From Luteibacter jiangsuensis (GTDB lineage: Bacteria > Pseudomonadota > Gammaproteobacteria > Xanthomonadales > Rhodanobacteraceae): DNA of 64,000 bases. The DNA lies in contig NZ_JAUSSK010000001.1 in assembly GCF_030812295.1 (NCBI RefSeq), positions 806,001 to 870,000 on the forward strand, written 5' to 3'. The position numbers and the translations under genes are program-made. The notes beneath the pieces were generated by a model, which was given only the letters and a program-made list of their open reading frames with translations, searched no databases and was not told where the DNA came from. Positions 1-9,308 of this stretch are shown in pieces. Each line of letters begins with the position of its first letter. Position 1 is the first letter of the stretch.

Positions 1-15
1 TACGGGGTCACGCGC

Positions 16-423
16 TCATCCCCTCGGCGACTTGCCGGTGACCAAGCCGACCTGCGGCAGGTCCACGCGACGCAGCAGATCGAGGATGTCCATCACCTTC
101 TGGTACTGGACCGTGGCATCGCCCTTCACCACCACCGGGAAATCCGGCGTGATCGCCTTCAGCGAACGCAGGCGCTGCTCCAGTTCGGCGAGCGTCACCG
201 GATAGGCATCGAGGAAGATCTGGCCCGTGTCGGAAATGGTGATGGCCTTGGTCTGCGGCTTGGCCATGCTCACCGCCGCGCTGGCCTTGGGCAGGTTCAC
301 CTTGATGCCCTGCACCGACGCGGTGGTCATGATGATGAAGATGACGAGCAACACGTACGCCAGGTCGAGCATCGGCGTGATGTTGATGTCGTCGTACGGC
401 TTATCGTCGTCTTGCGCGCGCAT
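16..423 (-). CDS. exbD: ExbD/TolR-type biopolymer transport protein
   Basis: This 135-residue inner-membrane protein is the D subunit of a proton-motive-force-driven ExbB/ExbD channel. It has a short charged cytoplasmic N-terminus, then one membrane helix with the family's essential aspartate in PMLDLAYVLLVIFI (Asp20), then a periplasmic ExbD domain ending in the usual DLPQVGLVTG. A GAGGA Shine-Dalgarno sequence lies 7 nt before the ATG, and the gene starts 10 nt after the upstream exbB-like gene stops, so the two are co-transcribed. Just past its stop codon a GTG at position 11, with GGGGAT upstream, could start the next gene, plausibly tonB, which lies outside the window. Family assignment is firm. 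The partner and substrate are inferred from context. Confidence 0.93.
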   Translation of the reverse strand: MRAQDDDKPYDDINITPMLDLAYVLLVIFIIMTTASVQGIKVNLPKASAAVSMAKPQTKAITISDTGQIFLDAYPVTLAELEQRLRSLKAITPDFPVVVKGDATVQYQKVMDILDLLRRVDLPQVGLVTGKSPRG

Positions 424-433
424 GATCCGATCC

Positions 434-2209
434 TCAGGCCGCGACGGCCGACGGTTGGTTGACGCGCTGCTGTTCGGCGAGGCGCGTCACGAACTCGTCC
501 ACGAACACCTGCATGTTCGCGGTGACGTTCTTGTTGCGGATCAGCAGATAGTTGTAGCCGAACAGTGCCGGGATCGCGACGAACAGACCGGCCACCGTGG
601 CGAGCAGCGCCGCGGCGATACCCGGGGCGATGGCGTTGACGTTGACGTCGCCCGCCGCGGCGATCGCCGCGAAGGTGATCATCACGCCGACCACGGTGCC
701 GAGCAGGCCAAGGAAGGGGCCGCCGGAGATCGCGATGGTAAGCAACACCATCGACCGGGACAGGGCCTGGTTCTCGCGCACCAGGACCGAATCCATGGTG
801 GCGCGGATCGCCTCGATGGACTCCGAAGCGATGTGGTCCTGGCCGTCTTCATCGCGGCGGTTCCACACTTCGGCGGCGCCGACCTTGTAGAGACGATAGA
901 GCGAGGCGTCCTGCAACCTCGACGCGGTGGCATCGCGCGACAGCGCGAGGATGTTACGGCCTTGCTGGCGGAAGGCGTCGAGGAAATCCTCGTTGGCGCG
1001 GGTCACCTTGTTGACGTACGCCGCACGCTGCCACATGACCACCCAGGAGATCGCTGCCATGACGAGCAGGATGCCGATCACCACCCAGGCATCGGCAGTC
1101 ACGGACTTGACGATGATGCCGAAGTAGCCGAAGCCCACGCCGGACTGTTTCTCGTCGGCGCCGTAAGCGAGCAACTTGGATTCCGCGCCCTGGGTCTGCG
1201 CATCGACCGCGATGACCACCGCCGGGCGGGCGATACGCGACAGGCGCACTTCGTCCATCAGGCCCGTGAATGGCAGGAAGGATTCGGCCTGGCCCGCGAT
1301 GTCGCCACCGAGGGTGGCCTGGCTGGTCATCGCGGGGAGCTTCGTCTCCAGCTTCGCGTAAGGCTTGCCGTCGACGTACAGTTCGATATCGCCGCCCGTG
1401 GCGGTGACGGCGACATGCGCCCATGTGGCGGCCTTGAGCGGTTCGCCGGCGGCGCTGGTGGTGTCGTTCACCTGGACGAAGGGCACACCGTTGTCGAGCC
1501 CGACCAGCAGCTTCTGCTCGCCCTGGCGGCGCGCGTAGACCAACGTACGCCCCGCAGGCAACGCGTCGGGCTTGATCCATGCGCTGAACGTGAAGCTGCC
1601 GCCCTCGGCGACATTCATCGAGACACTGCCCGGCAGGGTGACGATCTTCGAGCCGTCGAAACGCGCGGCCTTGCCGATGATGCCGTCGGCGGCGAGGATG
1701 TCGTTGCCCACGGCGTTGTTGGCGTAAGCGGTGGCGTCCTGTGGCGGTGTACCCGAGGCTTCCTCGAAGTGATAGACGGCGGCGTAGTCGGCGTCGAACA
1801 CCGCGCCGGCCTTCTCGGCGCCCTGCGCCTTGGGATTGCCGTAGTACATCCACACCTGCTGCTGGCTGTCCGCGCCGAGCTGCGGCACGTCCACCCAGAC
1901 CAGGGCCACGCCCAGCACCGGGTCGAAGCTCTCGATCTGGTAGTTCAGCGGGGTCTTGTCGTCGGCTGCGACGAAGCGGACGTCGGCACCCGTCTCGGAC
2001 ACGCCGTCGAAAGTGAAGTTGCCCGAGTGCAGGCGCACCAGCAACGGCGTGCGGCCCGCGGCGATCGTCACGTTGCCGCCCTTGGCCGTCGTATCGATGG
2101 TGATGGCCTTGCGGAAGGCGAAGTCCTGGTTCCACCACGAGGCGTCGGCATAAGCAGCCGGCACCCAGCCGAGGAGAAGCAAGCAGGTCAGGAACAAGAG
2201 TCGAGTCAC
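434..2209 (-). CDS. DUF2341/LamG-like domain fused to MotA/TolQ/ExbB proton channel
   Basis: This is an ExbB-type channel subunit with a large N-terminal extracytoplasmic part, 591 residues from the GTG chosen here. A signal peptide (residues 1-21, ending PAAYA) is followed by a DUF2341 module to about residue 140, then a concanavalin/LamG-like beta-sandwich (about 150-325, with GSFTFSAWIKPD and IELYVDGKPY). A membrane helix near residue 370 follows, then the ExbB domain with its conserved GPFLGLLGTVVGVMITF segment. Normal ExbB is about 240 residues, so this is a fusion. The GTG is preferred over an upstream ATG at 2293 because it begins the signal peptide, has GGGG about 7 nt upstream and avoids overlap with the transporter gene. 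It sits between tpsB and exbD. The fold suggests glycan or protein binding in the periplasm, which is inference. Confidence 0.88.
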   Translation of the reverse strand: MTRLLFLTCLLLLGWVPAAYADASWWNQDFAFRKAITIDTTAKGGNVTIAAGRTPLLVRLHSGNFTFDGVSETGADVRFVAADDKTPLNYQIESFDPVLGVALVWVDVPQLGADSQQQVWMYYGNPKAQGAEKAGAVFDADYAAVYHFEEASGTPPQDATAYANNAVGNDILAADGIIGKAARFDGSKIVTLPGSVSMNVAEGGSFTFSAWIKPDALPAGRTLVYARRQGEQKLLVGLDNGVPFVQVNDTTSAAGEPLKAATWAHVAVTATGGDIELYVDGKPYAKLETKLPAMTSQATLGGDIAGQAESFLPFTGLMDEVRLSRIARPAVVIAVDAQTQGAESKLLAYGADEKQSGVGFGYFGIIVKSVTADAWVVIGILLVMAAISWVVMWQRAAYVNKVTRANEDFLDAFRQQGRNILALSRDATASRLQDASLYRLYKVGAAEVWNRRDEDGQDHIASESIEAIRATMDSVLVRENQALSRSMVLLTIAISGGPFLGLLGTVVGVMITFAAIAAAGDVNVNAIAPGIAAALLATVAGLFVAIPALFGYNYLLIRNKNVTANMQVFVDEFVTRLAEQQRVNQPSAVAA

Positions 2210-2246
2210 GGTGATACCCCTGGATGTCTGTGGTCCGACCTGCCGG

Positions 2247-3869
2247 TCAGAGATCCGCTTTGAGTGAGAAATGAATGCGAGTGTCGTGCGCACGCGTCGC
2301 CTGCCCGTCCTTGAACGGATAGGCCACCTCGAAGGCGCCGGTGGCGATGTTGAAAATCTGGAAGCGCGTGCCCAGGCCGGCGCTGGACAGGTCGTAGCTG
2401 TTCACGCGTGTGCTGCCGGCCGCCGGGTTGGCCGGGTCGACGAGGCTGGGCAGCGCGTTCATCAGCACGAGGTGCGCCGCGTCGACGAAGGCATGGAAGC
2501 GCCAGTCGTTGACCCATGCGCCGAGGTGCGCGGCGATCGATGGTGTACGCAGCTCGATGGAGCCGGTGACGCCGTGGTCGGCGGTCTGCTCCGCCTCGAG
2601 GTAACCGCGCACGCTGCTCTGTCCGCCTGCCGCGTACTGTTCGCTGGAGATCAACGACGAATTCGACAACTGCAGGCCCAGGCGCCCGGCGAGGCTGAAA
2701 CCGTTGACGAAATTCCGCGTGTGGCCACCATCGAACTTCAAGTAGAAGAAATTGGTTCGTGCCTTGTAGCGCTGGTTGTCGAACTCCGCCGCGTTGCTGC
2801 CGCCGGCACGGAAACCCAGGGTGCCGCCGATCGCGACCGTGCTGATCGAGGTTTCGCCGATCGACTGGCCCTGATACGTGACGTTGAGCGGTATGTAAGT
2901 GATCGGCGCCTTGGATGTCTGGCCCGAGAGACTGATGTTCTGGTCGAAATGCTTGCGGGTGAGGCCGATCGACAGCGATTGCGAATACTCACCGTGCGTC
3001 GGCAGCGTGCGGATGAAACTGAAGCCCACGGCATTGCCCTTGCCCAGCACGGTCGTGCCACCGACGGCATTGGCATTGCTGTTGGACTTGTAGCCCGACG
3101 CCAACACGCTCCAGTCGCCGCCCAGCGGCACGAGATAGGAACCGGCCCAAACCTCGGCCGCGTTGCGATCCTGCGGCGCGACGATATAGGTGAGCGAGGC
3201 GGCGTGCCCTTCCTGGAACAGGTTGTCATCGCGCACGCTGGCCACGGTACGCAACTCCGGCGTATTGACACTGTGGTCGTTGTTCACTTCCAGGCTCGCG
3301 TGCCACGGCGAACCGTCCGTCACCTTCAGCGTCACATCCATCGTCTGCGGGAGCTTCCCCGGCGTGAGCACGGGAACCACCTGGCTGCCCCCCCGGCGAT
3401 TGACGTCGGTGAGCTGCTGCTGGGCCTGGGTGAAGTTCGGCACCTCGCCCTCGCGCAACGCGGGAACCGCGTCGCGGATGTCCTTGGGCGAACGGTAGGT
3501 CGCGCCTTCGACGCGCACGCGGCCGATCGCATTCTCGGTCACCTGGAAACGGATCACCCCACCCTTCACCTGCTGCGGCGGAAGGTCGACCACCACCGAC
3601 TGGTAACCATGCGCCTGGTACGCCTTCTGCAAGGCTTCGCGTGCCGCGCCGACGTCATTCATCGACTTGCCGGGGCCCAGGAACGGATAGACCGCCGTCT
3701 CGATCTCCAGCGCCTGCAGCGTGGTGTTGCCGTCCACGACGTATTCGTTGACGTCGAACGACGTCGGCGCGTCCTGGGCACCCGCGTCCATCGCCAGTCC
3801 CAGCGAGATGGCCAGCGCGAACGCATTGGCGCGCCAAGGGCTCGCGATACGCATCATGCGTTCACCCAT
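2247..3869 (-). CDS. ShlB/FhaC/HecB-family two-partner secretion transporter (TpsB)
   Basis: This outer-membrane beta-barrel of the Omp85/TpsB group exports a large partner exoprotein (TpsA) to the cell surface. The order is a signal peptide ending DAGAQ (about residue 32), a first POTRA domain (about 37-115, EYVVDGNTTLQALEIE), a second POTRA (about 118-195), then a 16-strand-type barrel. The barrel carries the family's loop-6 signature SVRGYLEAE near residue 430. Length (540 aa) is typical. An internal ATG at 3854 or 3857 with GGGTGA in front may be the true start. No TpsA gene lies in the window, so it is expected further left or elsewhere. The tight linkage with an ExbB/ExbD pair is not usual for two-partner secretion. 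Confidence 0.9.
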   Translation of the reverse strand: MGERMMRIASPWRANAFALAISLGLAMDAGAQDAPTSFDVNEYVVDGNTTLQALEIETAVYPFLGPGKSMNDVGAAREALQKAYQAHGYQSVVVDLPPQQVKGGVIRFQVTENAIGRVRVEGATYRSPKDIRDAVPALREGEVPNFTQAQQQLTDVNRRGGSQVVPVLTPGKLPQTMDVTLKVTDGSPWHASLEVNNDHSVNTPELRTVASVRDDNLFQEGHAASLTYIVAPQDRNAAEVWAGSYLVPLGGDWSVLASGYKSNSNANAVGGTTVLGKGNAVGFSFIRTLPTHGEYSQSLSIGLTRKHFDQNISLSGQTSKAPITYIPLNVTYQGQSIGETSISTVAIGGTLGFRAGGSNAAEFDNQRYKARTNFFYLKFDGGHTRNFVNGFSLAGRLGLQLSNSSLISSEQYAAGGQSSVRGYLEAEQTADHGVTGSIELRTPSIAAHLGAWVNDWRFHAFVDAAHLVLMNALPSLVDPANPAAGSTRVNSYDLSSAGLGTRFQIFNIATGAFEVAYPFKDGQATRAHDTRIHFSLKADL

Positions 3870-3963
3870 ACTGCTCGTGTAGCCACGCGGACTTTCCCCT
3901 GATGTTCCCGTTTGCCCACAAGACGCGTGGGCTGTCGTGGCACTGAACCGCTGTCACGAAAAA

Positions 3964-3992
3964 TTCATGAGCCGACCGTGCCGGCTCATGAA
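3964..3992 (-). terminator. intrinsic terminator after fecR
   Basis: An 11-bp perfect stem (TTCATGAGCCG / CGGCTCATGAA, 7-nt loop) is followed on the minus strand by a run of five T. It lies 6 nt beyond the fecR-like stop and about 95 nt before the tpsB start, so it separates the signalling genes from the secretion genes into two transcription units. Confidence 0.85.
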
Positions 3993-3997
3993 CGTGC

Positions 3998-4975
3998 TCA
4001 GCTCAGCAACACCCAACCGCCGGGAAGATGCGTCGCATGCGCGCCGTAGGCGTCCTGGATGAGGGTGGCGACGTCAGCCATCTGGTCGAGCGTGAAGCGC
4101 GCGTGCACGCGGCGCTCGCCGAGTGCGCGATCGGTGATGACGATGCGGCCCGGACGATAGCGGTTGATGTCCGCGACGACGTCGGCCAGTGGCTGGTTGT
4201 CGTAGATCAACACGCGTTGGCGCCAGGCCAGCGCGGTATCCGGATTCACGGCGACGGCGGGAGCCATGCCGCGGTCGTCGAACGCCACTTGCTGCGCCGG
4301 CTTCACCTCGGTCCTGGCCGCGCCCAGCGCGAGCACCGCGTGCCCATCGAGGCACGTCACCGCGGCGTCGCGGTCGATGCAACGCACGGCGAACGACGTA
4401 CCCGGCGTGGAGGTCAGGGTCGCATCCGCCAGTTCCACCACGAAGGGTATCGTGCGCGAGGCGTCGATACGGACCACGGCCTCGCCACTGCGCAGGCGCA
4501 TACCCGTGATGTCCTTGCCGCTGCCACGAAGCCCGATGTCGGTCGCCGTGTTCATTTCCACGGTGACACCCCGCACCACTTCGACACGGCGCTGCTCACC
4601 GACCGCCGTGCGGAGCCGCGAGCCATCCGCCGCGCCGGGCACGAGGTCCGCGCCGTAGCGCCCGATCAGCACGGCGGCGACCGATGCGCTGACCGCCGTG
4701 GCGAGGAACATCCGGCGGTTCATGCGTACGCCATGGCGAGGCGCGGATGGCTGGTCCCGATCCATGCGCTCGGCCCGTTGGGCGATGGCGGGGCCAAGGT
4801 CTTCCCACATGCGCCGCGTGCGGGCAAAGGCGGCCGCATGTTGCTCGCTCGCCAGGCACCATCGGCGGAACGCCTCGCCGTCTTCACGCGTGGCCGTTCC
4901 CGAGGTCAGGTGGACGAGCCAGGCCCGCGCCTGGCGCTCGCTTTCATGGATGCTGGTCGTTCCCATATCGCTCAA
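3998..4975 (-). CDS. FecR-family anti-sigma factor / signal transducer
   Basis: This 325-residue inner-membrane regulator is expected to relay a periplasmic signal to the ECF sigma factor encoded just upstream. The cytoplasmic N-terminal FecR_N region (residues 10-60, ARAWLVHLTSG, FRRWC) is followed by a basic stretch and a single membrane helix (about 89-110). Then comes the periplasmic FecR beta domain (about 120-215) and a C-terminal STN-like region (about 245-320). The start is probably TTG at 4975, which overlaps the sigma-factor stop and has GGAG 7 nt upstream; an ATG at 4966 is the alternative but has no good ribosome site. An intrinsic terminator follows the gene. Confidence 0.9.
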   Translation of the reverse strand: MSDMGTTSIHESERQARAWLVHLTSGTATREDGEAFRRWCLASEQHAAAFARTRRMWEDLGPAIAQRAERMDRDQPSAPRHGVRMNRRMFLATAVSASVAAVLIGRYGADLVPGAADGSRLRTAVGEQRRVEVVRGVTVEMNTATDIGLRGSGKDITGMRLRSGEAVVRIDASRTIPFVVELADATLTSTPGTSFAVRCIDRDAAVTCLDGHAVLALGAARTEVKPAQQVAFDDRGMAPAVAVNPDTALAWRQRVLIYDNQPLADVVADINRYRPGRIVITDRALGERRVHARFTLDQMADVATLIQDAYGAHATHLPGGWVLLS

Positions 4976-5508
4976 GACGGATCTCCGGCACCCGGACCGA
5001 ACCGCTGAACGGATTTGCGTCCCACTTTTGTGGCACAGGTCTCAAGTGCCTTCTTCAATTCCTTGCCCACCATGCGCACCGAGATGCCGTGGCGGGCCGC
5101 AATGGCCGCTTGCGGCTGTTCGTCGACCCGCGCCGCGATGAGGATCTCGCGCTGGCGGCGGGTGAGCATCTCCAGGGCCTCGCAGAGGGCGGCGAGATCC
5201 TGCCGCGAGGCGAGTACGGCAGGTGGGTCGAGTTGATCGTCCGCGCCGTGCACCAGCTCGTCGATCTCCTCGCCTGTCAGCAGGCGGCTGGAGGAACGAT
5301 GGTGATCGGCAGCCATGTTCAGCGCCATGCGGAACAGGTAACCCGTGGGATGCGTCGCGCGCTCGACGTTGGGATCGAGCCGCTCCACGCGCAGGTAGGT
5401 TTCCTGGAGCACATCGTCGACCAGGTCGTCCGACCGCAAGCGACGCCGCAGTCGACGGCGGAAGTCCTCGTAGTTGTCGAGGAACAACCCGAGCAGTGAG
5501 GTCTCCAT
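4972..5508 (-). CDS. ECF sigma-70 factor, FecI-like
   Basis: This 178-residue extracytoplasmic-function sigma factor has region 2 at about 8-75 (LVDDVLQETYLRVERL) and region 4 at about 115-165, whose helix-turn-helix reads TRRQREILIAARVDEQPQAAIAARHGIS. The ATG at 5508 has a GGAGGGCTGAGG ribosome site and follows the STN-protein stop by 2 nt, so translation is likely coupled. A longer in-frame extension upstream is not coding, because it runs through the STN gene. With the adjacent FecR it forms a cell-surface-signalling pair. Its target promoters are unknown; the neighbouring tpsB operon is the obvious candidate. Confidence 0.92.
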   Translation of the reverse strand: METSLLGLFLDNYEDFRRRLRRRLRSDDLVDDVLQETYLRVERLDPNVERATHPTGYLFRMALNMAADHHRSSSRLLTGEEIDELVHGADDQLDPPAVLASRQDLAALCEALEMLTRRQREILIAARVDEQPQAAIAARHGISVRMVGKELKKALETCATKVGRKSVQRFGPGAGDPS

Positions 5509-5510
5509 CC

Positions 5511-6227
5511 TCAGCCCTCCCCTGCGCGGTGGGCCCGGCACGCCTCGTCGGCGTTGGCCGAGGGTGTCAGCAAGACCGTCACGGGACTGGAACGATGGAC
5601 GTCCGCCGGCAAGCGCAACGAGCGAAGGGTGGCGAGCACCCGGTCGTCGCGTTCCTGATCGCCGGAGGTGGCCAGGGCCGCCACGTCGGTCACGCCGCCG
5701 TCGTTCCCGATCCACAACTGCATGGCCAGCCGGAACCCGCCTGGCCGCGTGTCCTCGTGCGCGCACAAGGCCCGCTCCACCGCCGCCTGCACGACACGTG
5801 CGGAGCGCTCGTCGAGCCTGTCGCCCGTAGGAACGGCCTCGTGACGCGGCGCGACGCCGTCGTCCGCCGGGTCCTGGCTGGATGCGGTGACCGTGAAGGC
5901 GTTCATCGAGGAAAAGTGCGCCACGAGCCCCGTGCCCACGAGCAGGGTGCGCAACGCGTCGCGCGGCGCGGCCACCCCGTGGAGCCCCTGCGACCGCTCG
6001 CCCGCGACAAGGCCGTCGTCGAACAGCACGGCGATACCCGTGGTTTCGCTGAAAGCGCGCAACGCGGTGGCGAGCGCCTGAGCGTCGATGTCGAAGCGCG
6101 TGGGTACATGCGTTCCTTCCGACCCCTGTGGCTGTCCCGTGGATGTGCGCACCTGCGCCGCCAACCATGGCGACGCGAGCAGGGCCATGCACGCGACAAG
6201 CGCGAGGACGCTGCGTGTCACGGTCAT
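5511..6227 (-). CDS. secreted stand-alone STN-domain protein with TonB-C-like C-terminus
   Basis: This 238-residue protein has a signal peptide (1-24, ending PWLAA). A Secretin_N/TonB short domain follows (about 42-110: FDIDAQALATALRAFSETTG, then GLHGVAAPRDALRTLL). The C-terminal half (about 140-228, AMQLWIGNDGGVTDVAAL and DDRVLATLRSLRLP) resembles the C-terminal domain of TonB-like proteins. In classical surface signalling the STN domain is the N-terminal plug extension of a TonB-dependent receptor. Here it is a free periplasmic protein and the first gene of an STN, sigma, fecR operon. The role as signal input to FecR is inference from the gene order. Confidence 0.8.
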   Translation of the reverse strand: MTVTRSVLALVACMALLASPWLAAQVRTSTGQPQGSEGTHVPTRFDIDAQALATALRAFSETTGIAVLFDDGLVAGERSQGLHGVAAPRDALRTLLVGTGLVAHFSSMNAFTVTASSQDPADDGVAPRHEAVPTGDRLDERSARVVQAAVERALCAHEDTRPGGFRLAMQLWIGNDGGVTDVAALATSGDQERDDRVLATLRSLRLPADVHRSSPVTVLLTPSANADEACRAHRAGEG

Positions 6228-6410
6228 TCCTCACGCATGAGCGGACGGGACGGAAACTCGTCTCGGGGTGAAGGCTAGGCGCGCCAAATGACACAACGAC
6301 GCTATTTCAGTGACAGGATTAATGACCGTCGCGTGACACCGTCCGATTCGCTTACCGGTGCAACCGGTTACGTGCTATCTGGTGCGGACGGCCAGACGAA
6401 GGAAATCATC

Positions 6411-6770
6411 ATGCGTATTCGGCAAGTCCTTGCCATGGCCCTGGCCGTCGCGACGCCCTGCGCGATGGCGCAATCGGTCGTGGACTTGCCAGGCGTGCAC
6501 GCCGCGGCGAACGCGGGCTGCGTCGAAGCCGCCGATACGGCGTCGACGGGACTTTCCTATGCCTGCCTGAGCCGCCTGATGGCGGCGGACACCGTGCCGG
6601 CAAGCACGCCCGCCATCGATGCCGGGGTTAGCCGACGACCCACCAACACGCTGGGCCTCTACAACGCCGCCGGCCTGCAACATCGCATGGGGCCGAACCT
6701 GGGGGTGTCGGTGCAGCCGTATCGGCCGAAGCCCACCTACCCCAAGCTGCTGGTCGGCCCGGCACGCTAG
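6411..6770 (+). CDS. small secreted protein of unknown function
   Basis: This 119-residue protein is not recognised. It begins with a clear signal peptide (MRIRQVLAMALAVATPCAMA, cleavage near residue 20) and has an AAGGAA ribosome site 6 nt before the ATG. The mature part has two cysteines (about 37 and 50), a Ser/Thr/Ala-rich middle and a Pro-rich tail (VSVQPYRPKPTYPKLLVG). It is transcribed divergently from the STN/sigma/fecR operon with 183 bp between, so it may be a member or target of that signalling system. The reading frame is judged real from the signal peptide and ribosome site, not from homology. Confidence 0.6.
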   Translation: MRIRQVLAMALAVATPCAMAQSVVDLPGVHAAANAGCVEAADTASTGLSYACLSRLMAADTVPASTPAIDAGVSRRPTNTLGLYNAAGLQHRMGPNLGVSVQPYRPKPTYPKLLVGPAR

Positions 6771-6786
6771 CCGGGACGGACACGTC

Positions 6787-9114
6787 TCAGGGCTTGCCCA
6801 GCGGCAGAACCGTGGCGGGTTCGCCACTGCCCAACTTCGCATCGGCGCGAACCGGACGCAGCGATTCGAACTTCCGCTGGTACTCATCCGTCACCTGCTT
6901 GGCTTCCTCGCCGTTGCTGATGACGCGCGGCGTGATCAGCACGATCAGTTCGGTGCGATCGCGGCCGCGGGTCGTGGAACCGAACAAGCGGCCGAAAATG
7001 GGGATGCGATTCAGGCCCGGAATGCCGGTGTCGGTGACACCTTCCTGCTGCTTGATGAGTCCGCCGAGCAAGACCGTCTGTCCGCTCTGTACCGCCACCT
7101 GGGTGGCGACCTCGCGTTGCTGGATCGGGAAGTTGCCCGTGGTCGTGTCCTTCTGGCCCGGCGCGCTCACCACCTGGTTGATGTTCATGTACACCAGGCC
7201 GCCCGGATTCACACGCGGACGCACGTTGAGGATCACGCCGGTGTCCTTGTATTCCACCTGGCCGATCGTGTTGTCCGTGTTGGCGCTGGTATTGACGAAG
7301 GTCTGCGTGATCGGGATCTGGTCGCCGACCTGGATGTGCGCCTTCTGGTTGTTCAGCACCACCAGCGAGGGAGCCGACAATGTCTTCGTGTTGCCGCTGG
7401 TTTCCATCGCGCGCAGCGCGACGGCGAGGTTGTTGTTGACGAAGGAGTAGAAGAAGCTGTCGGTGTTTGGATTGTAGACGTTGCCGCCGTTACCCAGCGC
7501 CCACTGCTGTTTGTTGCCGGGCTGTCCCACGGAACCGTTGGTGCCGCCGACCAGGCCTTCCAGGTACCACTGCACGCCGAACTGGAAATCGCCGGTCAAG
7601 GCCACCTCGAGGATGCGCGTCTCGATCTGCACCTGCAGCGGCACGGCATCCAGGCGCTTGATCGCCTGCTCGATCTCCGTCCACTGCGAGGGGCGGCAGC
7701 GCACCATCAGCTGGTTGTTCGCATCCACCGAAGTGATGCGCACGCCTTCGTCCGTCGTGACCGGCCCATTGCGCTGGCGGCGCGACGAGGTGTCGTCGTC
7801 GCCGAACCCGCTGCCGGCAAAGCCGCTGCCCGAGCCGAACGAGGAACCGCCACTCATGCCGGAAGACGAGCCGTTGAGGCCGCTGTTGTTCGTCGTGTTG
7901 AGCAGACCTGAATTCGACGACGAGCTGTTGCCGAAACCGCCCGTGGTGCTGCCGAGGCCCGAGCCGCCACGATTGCCGAGGTCGCTGTCGCCGCCGAGGG
8001 TGCCGGAACTGAGCCCCGGCCCGACCTTGCCGCCGCGATCGCTGGAACCGCCACCGCCTGAGCCGCCACCATAGATGTCCGACAGGTAATCGGCGAGATC
8101 GGCGGCTTGCACATTGCGCACGTCATAGACATACAGCTGTGGCTCGTTGCCGCCGCCCCGGTCGATGCGGTCGATCCAGCTCCTCACCTCGTCGAGGTAC
8201 ACGGGCTGCGGGCTGATCACCACGAGGGAATTGGTACGTTCGATGGGGATGAAGCGAAGCATACCCGCCATGGGCGTGTTGCCCTTCTCGCCGAACAACT
8301 TGTCGAGTGTTGGCGTGAGGTCCTTCACTTCCGCGCGTTGCAGGCTGAACACACCCACCGACATGCCACGCAACCAGTCGACGTCGAAGGTCTGCACCGT
8401 GCGCTGGTAGTTCTCCAGTTCGGTCGGCGTGCCGGCCATCACCAGCACGTTGCGCGTGGGGTCGGCCAGCAAGGTGGCATCGGGTCGCGCGAAGGGCTTG
8501 ATCAGTTTCTGCATCTCGGTGGCCGAGATGAAACGCAGGGGAAACAAGCGCGCCTGCAAGCCGCCCGGCGGTGCCGTCGCGCCCATGCTCGGCACGAGGT
8601 TGCCCGCCACCGCGTCCTTCGCGGGCATGACCACGTAGCGGTCGCCGCTACGGACCAGGGCATTGCCCGTCCAGGACAACAGGGTCTCCAGGATCGGCAA
8701 GGCCTGCTCGCTCGACACCGGCTGCGAGGTGGAGAAGGAGACGTTCCCCTGCACGCCCGGCACGATCGAATAGTTCTCATGCAGCAGGTCTCCGAGGATG
8801 GCTTTCACCACCGACTCGACCGGCTGGTTCTCGAAATTGAAGGTCACCGTGCCCGCGCCCGCCGCCACCGGCTTCGGCTTGGGCAGGCCCACCGCTTTCA
8901 CGAATTCACCCGTGCCCGTGGTGATGTCGGGCTGCGCGGCCGCCGGAACGGGAGGATTGGTGGTGCCCACCGTCAACGGCTTGGGCACCGGCTTCTCCGT
9001 GCCGGCCAGCGCTTCCCGCTGGAGCGATCCATCGTCGCGCGGCTGCGGCAGCGTCGAGCATCCGGCAAGCGCTACCGCCAGCGCCGTGGCGCCGATCAGG
9101 GAACTTCTCAACAT
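6787..9114 (-). CDS. gspD: type II secretion system secretin GspD (XpsD-like lipoprotein)
   Basis: This 775-residue outer-membrane secretin forms the exit pore for folded exoproteins. A lipoprotein signal with lipobox ALAGC (Cys about 20) is followed by N0 (about 95-170), N1 and N2 domains, and an N3 domain split by about 110 residues of Gly/Ser/Asn-rich sequence (about 350-460). The secretin core has the C-terminal signature VLLGGLIKQQEG and IPIFGRLFG. Xanthomonas XpsD, also a lipoprotein with an insert, is the closest described type. The ATG at 9114 is used because it starts the signal peptide; a longer frame to 9153 has no support. No other gsp gene is in the window, so the rest of the machine must be elsewhere or to one side. 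Confidence 0.93.
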   Translation of the reverse strand: MLRSSLIGATALAVALAGCSTLPQPRDDGSLQREALAGTEKPVPKPLTVGTTNPPVPAAAQPDITTGTGEFVKAVGLPKPKPVAAGAGTVTFNFENQPVESVVKAILGDLLHENYSIVPGVQGNVSFSTSQPVSSEQALPILETLLSWTGNALVRSGDRYVVMPAKDAVAGNLVPSMGATAPPGGLQARLFPLRFISATEMQKLIKPFARPDATLLADPTRNVLVMAGTPTELENYQRTVQTFDVDWLRGMSVGVFSLQRAEVKDLTPTLDKLFGEKGNTPMAGMLRFIPIERTNSLVVISPQPVYLDEVRSWIDRIDRGGGNEPQLYVYDVRNVQAADLADYLSDIYGGGSGGGGSSDRGGKVGPGLSSGTLGGDSDLGNRGGSGLGSTTGGFGNSSSSNSGLLNTTNNSGLNGSSSGMSGGSSFGSGSGFAGSGFGDDDTSSRRQRNGPVTTDEGVRITSVDANNQLMVRCRPSQWTEIEQAIKRLDAVPLQVQIETRILEVALTGDFQFGVQWYLEGLVGGTNGSVGQPGNKQQWALGNGGNVYNPNTDSFFYSFVNNNLAVALRAMETSGNTKTLSAPSLVVLNNQKAHIQVGDQIPITQTFVNTSANTDNTIGQVEYKDTGVILNVRPRVNPGGLVYMNINQVVSAPGQKDTTTGNFPIQQREVATQVAVQSGQTVLLGGLIKQQEGVTDTGIPGLNRIPIFGRLFGSTTRGRDRTELIVLITPRVISNGEEAKQVTDEYQRKFESLRPVRADAKLGSGEPATVLPLGKP

Positions 9115-9308
9115 GAAACAACGTACTCCCTCGTTGGACACGGCACGATACACCGACGCCTGGTGCGCTGCCGATCCGGCAACTCTAAAGGGAGGGTTCC
9201 TACAGCGCCAGCACCCGGCGGCGGGCCTGCGTCACAGGTCCGCGCCGCCGACGTCTGCCGAAGGCCGCGCCGGCCCAGCGAGTGCCGGGCGGAAAGCCGT
9301 TCAGTTCG

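Follow-up and report, generated by a model that had tools for sequence, protein, structure and literature searches.

Can a two-partner secretion (TPS) system have a motor of its own? The question is raised by a gene cluster of Luteibacter jiangsuensis in which tpsB, encoding an outer-membrane transporter, is followed by genes for ExbB, ExbD, a TonB-like protein and a Porin_5 barrel, and then by the gene for a giant TpsA. The cluster lies partly in the window, the 64,000-nucleotide stretch that was analysed (C1:806001-870000 of the 4.32-Mb genome), and partly in its left flank, the genes of which were fetched from the same genome. The best reading of these genes is a predicted proton-driven TonB motor, private to one TPS subtype. 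The probability that the motor serves the export or the surface placement of TpsA is put at roughly 0.45.

The first-pass annotation, made from the letters of window positions 1-6227, had read an STN protein, an extracytoplasmic function (ECF) sigma factor, FecR, TpsB, an ExbB fusion and ExbD in one direction. All six genes are on the minus strand, and each was identified by Pfam. A possible next start suspected at the window edge is the start of the TonB-like gene, and a look to the left for tonB and a TpsA, which that annotation had proposed, turned up both. The genes of the cluster are as follows.

Window 5511..6227, minus strand: VreA-like periplasmic protein without a barrel (Pfam STN, 3.4e-7), with a TonB-type C-terminal domain
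Window 4972..5508, minus strand: ECF sigma factor, VreI-like (Sigma70_r2 and r4_2; sigma70-ECF)
Window 3998..4975, minus strand: FecR-type anti-sigma factor, VreR-like (DUF4880 and FecR)
Window 2247..3869, minus strand: TpsB outer-membrane transporter, PdtB-like (POTRA_2, 6e-16; ShlB, 2e-18)
Window 434..2209, minus strand: ExbB fusion with an N-terminal DUF2341 and LamG-like periplasmic part (DUF2341, 4e-19; Laminin_G_3, 2e-19; MotA_ExbB, 1e-27)
Window 16..423, minus strand: ExbD (3e-28), with the membrane Asp at residue 20
Window 1..11, minus strand, starting at base 11 (C1:806011-805328 in full): TonB-like gene, borderline Pfam TonB match
C1:805331-803592: Porin_5 barrel (Pfam E 2e-176)
C1:803582-802956: coiled-coil secreted protein, after the Porin_5 gene
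Between the coiled-coil gene and tpsA: 158-aa protein
C1:802461-790396: TpsA, 4,021 aa (TPS domain, 4e-19; C-terminal DUF3739, 3e-36)

The sequence shows the regulators (the STN-TonB fusion, the ECF sigma factor and FecR) first and, behind them, the closely packed run tpsB-exbB-exbD-tonB-porin-coil-(158 aa)-tpsA, with hardly any intergenic gaps from the TonB-like gene to tpsA. The cluster has the POTRA domain, the ShlB-type barrel and the TPS-domain substrate of two-partner secretion. The ExbB fusion gene starts with GTG, with AGGGG ahead of it. The TonB-like protein scores 21.9 bits against a Pfam TonB cut-off of 22; it has a proline-rich stretch and a membrane anchor, judged by eye, and 99 similar proteins are encoded in relatives' clusters.

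When named genomes were scanned for the DUF2341-LamG part, at least 567 confirmed relatives were found, of which the best 80 loci were used; with this query, these loci cannot show how often an ExbB without DUF2341-LamG adjoins TpsB. The ExbB channel was in the same open reading frame (ORF) in all 80, TpsB was present in all 80, and ExbD, TonB, Porin_5 and the coil protein were each present in 79, the exception being a contig end (L106). The order TpsB-ExbB-ExbD-TonB-Porin_5-coil held in 79 of the 80, so the layout that the first-pass annotation had suggested searching for is conserved across genera, among them Luteibacter, Dyella, Burkholderia, Paraburkholderia, Trinickia, Pandoraea, Pseudomonas (including P. 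fluorescens), Achromobacter, Cupriavidus and Bordetella. P. aeruginosa was not among the best 80. A TpsA end lay within about 10 kb in 45. Among relatives of L. jiangsuensis, the full-length fusion was found in 19 of 23 genomes of the same genus, 3 of 14 of the family's other genera and 1 of 24 of the rest of the order.

Searches with DUF3739 and Porin_5 provide a test independent of the DUF2341-LamG query, and were made in 397 evenly drawn Pseudomonadota genomes. The DUF2341/LamG-ExbB fusion (E < 1e-35) was found in 18 genomes, plus one (G285) in which it is cut by a contig end; the search matched 32 genomes, and 13 weaker matches (E 1.6e-10 or weaker) were left uncounted. Full-length Porin_5 (E < 1e-100) was found in 19 genomes, with partial or weak matches in 8 more left uncounted, and DUF3739 in 19 with no weaker matches. 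All three sets consist of the same 19 genomes, which represent 11 families. None of the 397 had DUF3739 or full-length Porin_5 without the fusion, which makes the association nearly obligate in the searched sample; the genomes are related, so the 19 co-occurrences are not independent events. A chance neighbourhood is ruled out by this co-occurrence and by the order in 79 of the best 80 named loci.

The TpsB-type POTRA_2 domain was far more widespread (219 of the 397 genomes, 202 of them above the Pfam cut-off), so most genomes with TPS lack the motor module. Among the 19 genomes it was missing from G285 alone and present in the other 18. In one genome (G274) the motor genes and the TPS genes are on separate contigs, both present. 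The two other TpsB genes of the window genome had no ExbB, ExbD or TonB match within about 10 kb. In a wider set of 20 neighbourhoods from 17 other genomes, ExbD and TonB were beside the fusion in all 20, and the other parts were less tightly linked: Porin_5 adjoined it in 17 neighbourhoods, TpsA or TpsB in 16 and the coil protein in 13. In the four loci with no adjoining TPS gene (L057, L059, L060 and L063), TPS genes are found elsewhere in the same genomes.

The ExbD Asp and the Thr and Glu of the third transmembrane segment (TM3) of ExbB/TolQ line the proton path. The Asp was invariant in 100 of 100 ExbD sequences from 99 loci, and the Thr in 100 of 100 fusion sequences (99 distinct); these sets, like the porin comparison set, hold at least one genome twice (L047, L075). 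The model of the fusion (mean predicted local distance difference test, pLDDT, 85; predicted template modelling score 0.60) places a beta ectodomain ahead of a TolQ-like channel. In sequence searches the channel matched TolQ/ExbB structures and the LamG part an arabinanase domain. Judged by its fold the fusion is of the ExbB motor type; the TM3 Glu site is atypical. It resembles ExbB/TolQ channels and the 'generic ion transporters' described with DUF2341 on their A subunit (PMC12505986) in its TolQ-like fold and its proton-path Asp and Thr, and differs from ExbB/TolQ in the large DUF2341 and LamG ectodomain and in Ala for the usual Glu. An artefact of gene calling or assembly is ruled out by the presence of both halves in one ORF at 100 loci (99 distinct sequences).

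A system of this kind has been described, one of the findings that the first-pass annotation had named as refuting it, and the novelty it suggested does not stand. In the PUMA3/Vre system of P. aeruginosa, VreA lacks a barrel and combines an STN-like N-terminus with a TolA/TonB-like C-terminus; VreI is the sigma factor and VreR the anti-sigma factor (Llamas 2009, PMC2729926). Its regulon includes tpsA, tpsB, exbB2, exbD2, PA0696 and PA0697, with the tonB homologue PA0695 located among these genes, and clusters of TPS, ExbBD and PA0696-homologue genes are reported in P. fluorescens, P. entomophila, Burkholderia vietnamiensis, R. palustris and Janthinobacterium (PMC2729926). The system comes with pdtAB-exbB2D2-tonB4-PA0696-PA0697; its operon is given as phdA-pdtB-exbB2D2-tonB4-PA0696 to PA0701 (PMC4971064), and PA0696 is described as a putative outer membrane porin and its TonB system as uncharacterised (PMC7035377). 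The window cluster shares the barrel-less STN protein with its TolA/TonB-like C-terminus, then the ECF sigma factor and FecR; it shares TpsB followed by ExbB, ExbD, TonB, the putative porin and a small gene, as well as a large TpsA. Because the kinds of parts and their order agree from tpsB through the coil gene, the cluster is almost certainly a member of the PUMA3/Pdt kind. It differs in that tpsA closes the tpsB gene run and the regulators stand directly before tpsB. In P. aeruginosa PhoB and VreI control the tps genes; the window cluster has a conserved promoter-like motif before tpsB. Faure and colleagues reportedly worked on PdtA in 2013 and 2014. In the three Vre papers (PMC2729926, PMC4971064, PMC7035377) the terms DUF2341, laminin, lectin and DUF3739 are absent, so the lectin-like part of ExbB seems to have gone unremarked there, and our literature search found no paper on DUF3739.

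In the proposed mechanism, FecR would hold the ECF sigma factor until a periplasmic signal, passed on by the STN-TonB protein, released it, and the released factor would transcribe the tpsB operon from a conserved motif. ExbB-ExbD would use the proton gradient to move TonB, which would pull on an outer-membrane partner, most likely Porin_5 with its VRVTYVPE segment, or TpsB itself. The motor's most likely task would be to complete the export of the giant TpsA or to place it at the surface, with the C-terminal DUF3739 as the feature that travels with the motor genes. Known ExbB/TolQ channels are pentamers, and the ExbB ectodomain would ring the motor with up to five lectin-like modules, a ring that could steady it on peptidoglycan or on partners. 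ORFs near the module in the best 80 loci were grouped by single linkage after a filter on third-position GC content (GC3). Among the groups, a PPIC-type rotamase occurs in 25 loci and a DegP-like trypsin/PDZ protease in 14, with one member of each confirmed by Pfam; both would suit a protein-export operon. A fuller version, in which a TPS subtype with DUF3739 substrates would be driven by a private ExbB(lectin-like)-ExbD-TonB motor with TonB docking on Porin_5, would make this the first energised type V route, with soluble TonB-domain proteins as occupancy sensors. We hold this version only tentatively and think the odds are against it.

Several points weigh against a motor for secretion. In the literature, type V secretion is said to do without an external energy source (PMC5422565). 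Energy coupling by the motor is a prediction from the genes. The usual TM3 Glu is replaced in the fusions by Ala (99 of 100) or Ser (1 of 100), but is retained in the window genome's own TolQ and ExbB, and proton flow may therefore differ. The VRVTYVPE segment is a candidate TonB box by mere resemblance, and the N-terminus of Porin_5 that holds it was modelled with low confidence (pLDDT blocks of 41-71). Two loci (L059 and L063) have extra copies of the fusion, ExbD and TonB with no TPS or porin match adjoining; both genomes also have a full set. In a zebrafish virulence assay with vreI overexpressed, a PA0695 mutant behaved as wild type (PMC2729926); the tpsA and tpsB mutants did likewise, so this result says little about export.

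The transporter itself has a feature that bears on the comparison with classical TPS. The barrel of a TPS transporter is described as plugged by one helix (PMC5422565). In the window TpsB the first POTRA begins at residue 38, about six residues after the signal peptide by eye, so a plug helix of the usual kind is not apparent; some relatives have a longer linker before POTRA. The cluster resembles the FhaC/FhaB (type Vb) pair in its POTRA_2 domain, ShlB barrel and TPS domain in the substrate, and differs from it in the dedicated ExbB-ExbD-TonB and Porin_5, and perhaps in the plug helix.

Porin_5 was modelled (mean pLDDT 81) as a barrel of 16 long strands without a plug; the N-terminus is helical, and a VRVxYVP stretch in it is highly conserved and unstructured in the model. 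The closest solved folds, at modest TM-scores, are OmpM1, AlgE, DcaP and porins; the best match is OmpM1, an outer-membrane attachment porin, with a TM-score of 0.44 by query and 0.74 by target. In a profile search, matches to solved structures were weak, the best at E 0.12. A plugged TonB-dependent receptor, which would have a 22-strand barrel, is ruled out by the model.

The strongest alternative is import: TpsA at the surface would capture a large substrate, Porin_5 would admit it and TonB would power its entry, as HxuA and HxuC do for haem. HxuABC of Haemophilus influenzae is a precedent (PMC5422565, PMC4873976), with TPS genes that adjoin a TonB-linked outer-membrane protein (PMC5422565); there the partner is a TonB-dependent transporter, whereas here it is an unplugged porin model with a private motor. 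Porin_5 is linked to the fusion as tightly as TPS is, the context in P. aeruginosa is one of phosphate starvation (PMC4971064), and a PBP_like_2 binding protein is encoded beyond tpsA. The unplugged 16-strand barrel, with its closest folds among porins, OmpM1, AlgE and DcaP and not among TonB-dependent receptors, argues against import. So does the lack of an importer among 10 Pfam-scanned members, one each, from the 14 largest neighbour groups (6 were named and 4 had no clear match); importers elsewhere were not searched for. On balance import is unlikely.

A second alternative, drawn by analogy only and quite improbable, is that Porin_5 and the coil protein would hold TpsA at the surface through DUF3739, and that the TonB motor would release or reposition it. 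OmpM1 as the best structural match, the helical N-terminus of Porin_5 and the co-occurrence of Porin_5 with DUF3739 are consistent with such a tether, but Pfam reported no peptidoglycan-binding domain in Porin_5.

Of the surface-signalling proteins, the STN protein shares a domain with TonB. The first-pass annotation had described it as an STN protein in an operon for a non-receptor signal. The barrel-less STN protein with its ECF sigma factor and FecR bears out the operon, and the description of the protein was right as far as it went, as a TonB-type C-terminal domain is also present. Residues 144-206 match a hidden Markov model (HMM) of the clusters' TonB C-termini (1.8e-10). By this HMM, 41 of the 43 STN proteins of these loci carry the domain, of the same subfamily; the other two are in L052 (1,039 aa) and L054 (extending to the locus end). 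It matched 44 other ORFs at E < 0.01, many of them small secreted proteins of Burkholderia-type loci. Beside Burkholderia-type clusters are small secreted proteins that are scarcely more than such a domain (L091:20041-20526, L082:20387-20920 and similar loci), and Pfam named no domain in the one that was scanned. Regulators on the module's strand in the best 80 named loci numbered 34 for STN, 37 for sigma and 44 for FecR. Very improbable is a motor that would mainly serve the STN-TonB protein, which would compete with TonB for a shared docking site and report its occupancy to FecR: the shared TonB subfamily and the small secreted proteins at several Burkholderia-type loci point that way, but just 46 of the best 80 named loci have any of STN, sigma or FecR within about 10 kb, and VreA is dispensable for the P. 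aeruginosa regulon under phosphate starvation (PMC4971064).

Between fecR and tpsB are two features of the DNA.

Window 3963..3993, minus strand: hairpin with a T-run, read as a terminator by the first-pass annotation
Window 3942..3964, minus strand: promoter-like conserved motif ATTTTTCGTGACAGCGGTTCAGT before tpsB, from an alignment by eye

The hairpin (3993-3963) exists, but one such site was found against 3.3 expected in shuffles of 6.8 kb, no more than chance would give, and its T-run lies within the promoter-like motif, TGAATTTTTCGTGACA-n-GGTTCAGT...CGTCT. By eye, the motif was present in 17 of 20 aligned rows, its own row included, mainly from Luteibacter and Dyella; one row was incomplete and two were without it. 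It is also present in L072, where no hairpin was seen. With up to 3 mismatches allowed it has one site in the genome, so no second copy turned up before tpsA. It is perhaps the target of the ECF sigma factor. Possible Pho boxes before tpsB, seen by eye as repeats in Dyella rows, have an unfitting spacing.

Two GspD secretin genes flank the whole cluster (window 6787-9153 and L158:8320-10602), with about 90% DNA identity over two stretches, which suggests a duplication or an insertion at a type II secretion locus. Left of the cluster are GspK-like and pseudopilin-like genes with matches below Pfam cut-offs; in P. aeruginosa the Hxc type II genes adjoin PUMA3. A small putative secreted protein without a Pfam match is encoded on the opposite strand between the STN gene and GspD (window 6288-6770). 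Beyond tpsA, the PBP_like_2 protein (L158:13848-15314), presumably of the phosphate-binding type, and a beta-propeller protein (L158:12748-13788) are in keeping with a phosphate theme. Two more ORF groups lie near the module in the best 80 named loci: the YbjN family in 26 of them and, in 16, a transposase-like protein that contains a weak Phd-like stretch. Examples of the PPIC-type rotamase, YbjN and transposase-like ORFs are L116:8310-9251, L095:15623-16234 and L099:2207-3988, and the three groups recall PA0699, PA0698 and PhdA/PA0691 of P. aeruginosa.

The close co-travel of the parts makes the question of energised secretion a testable one. If this TPS subtype depends on a private TonB complex, energised secretion could be tested directly, and DUF3739, Porin_5 and the DUF2341-ExbB fusion together would be a rule for finding the subtype in genomes.

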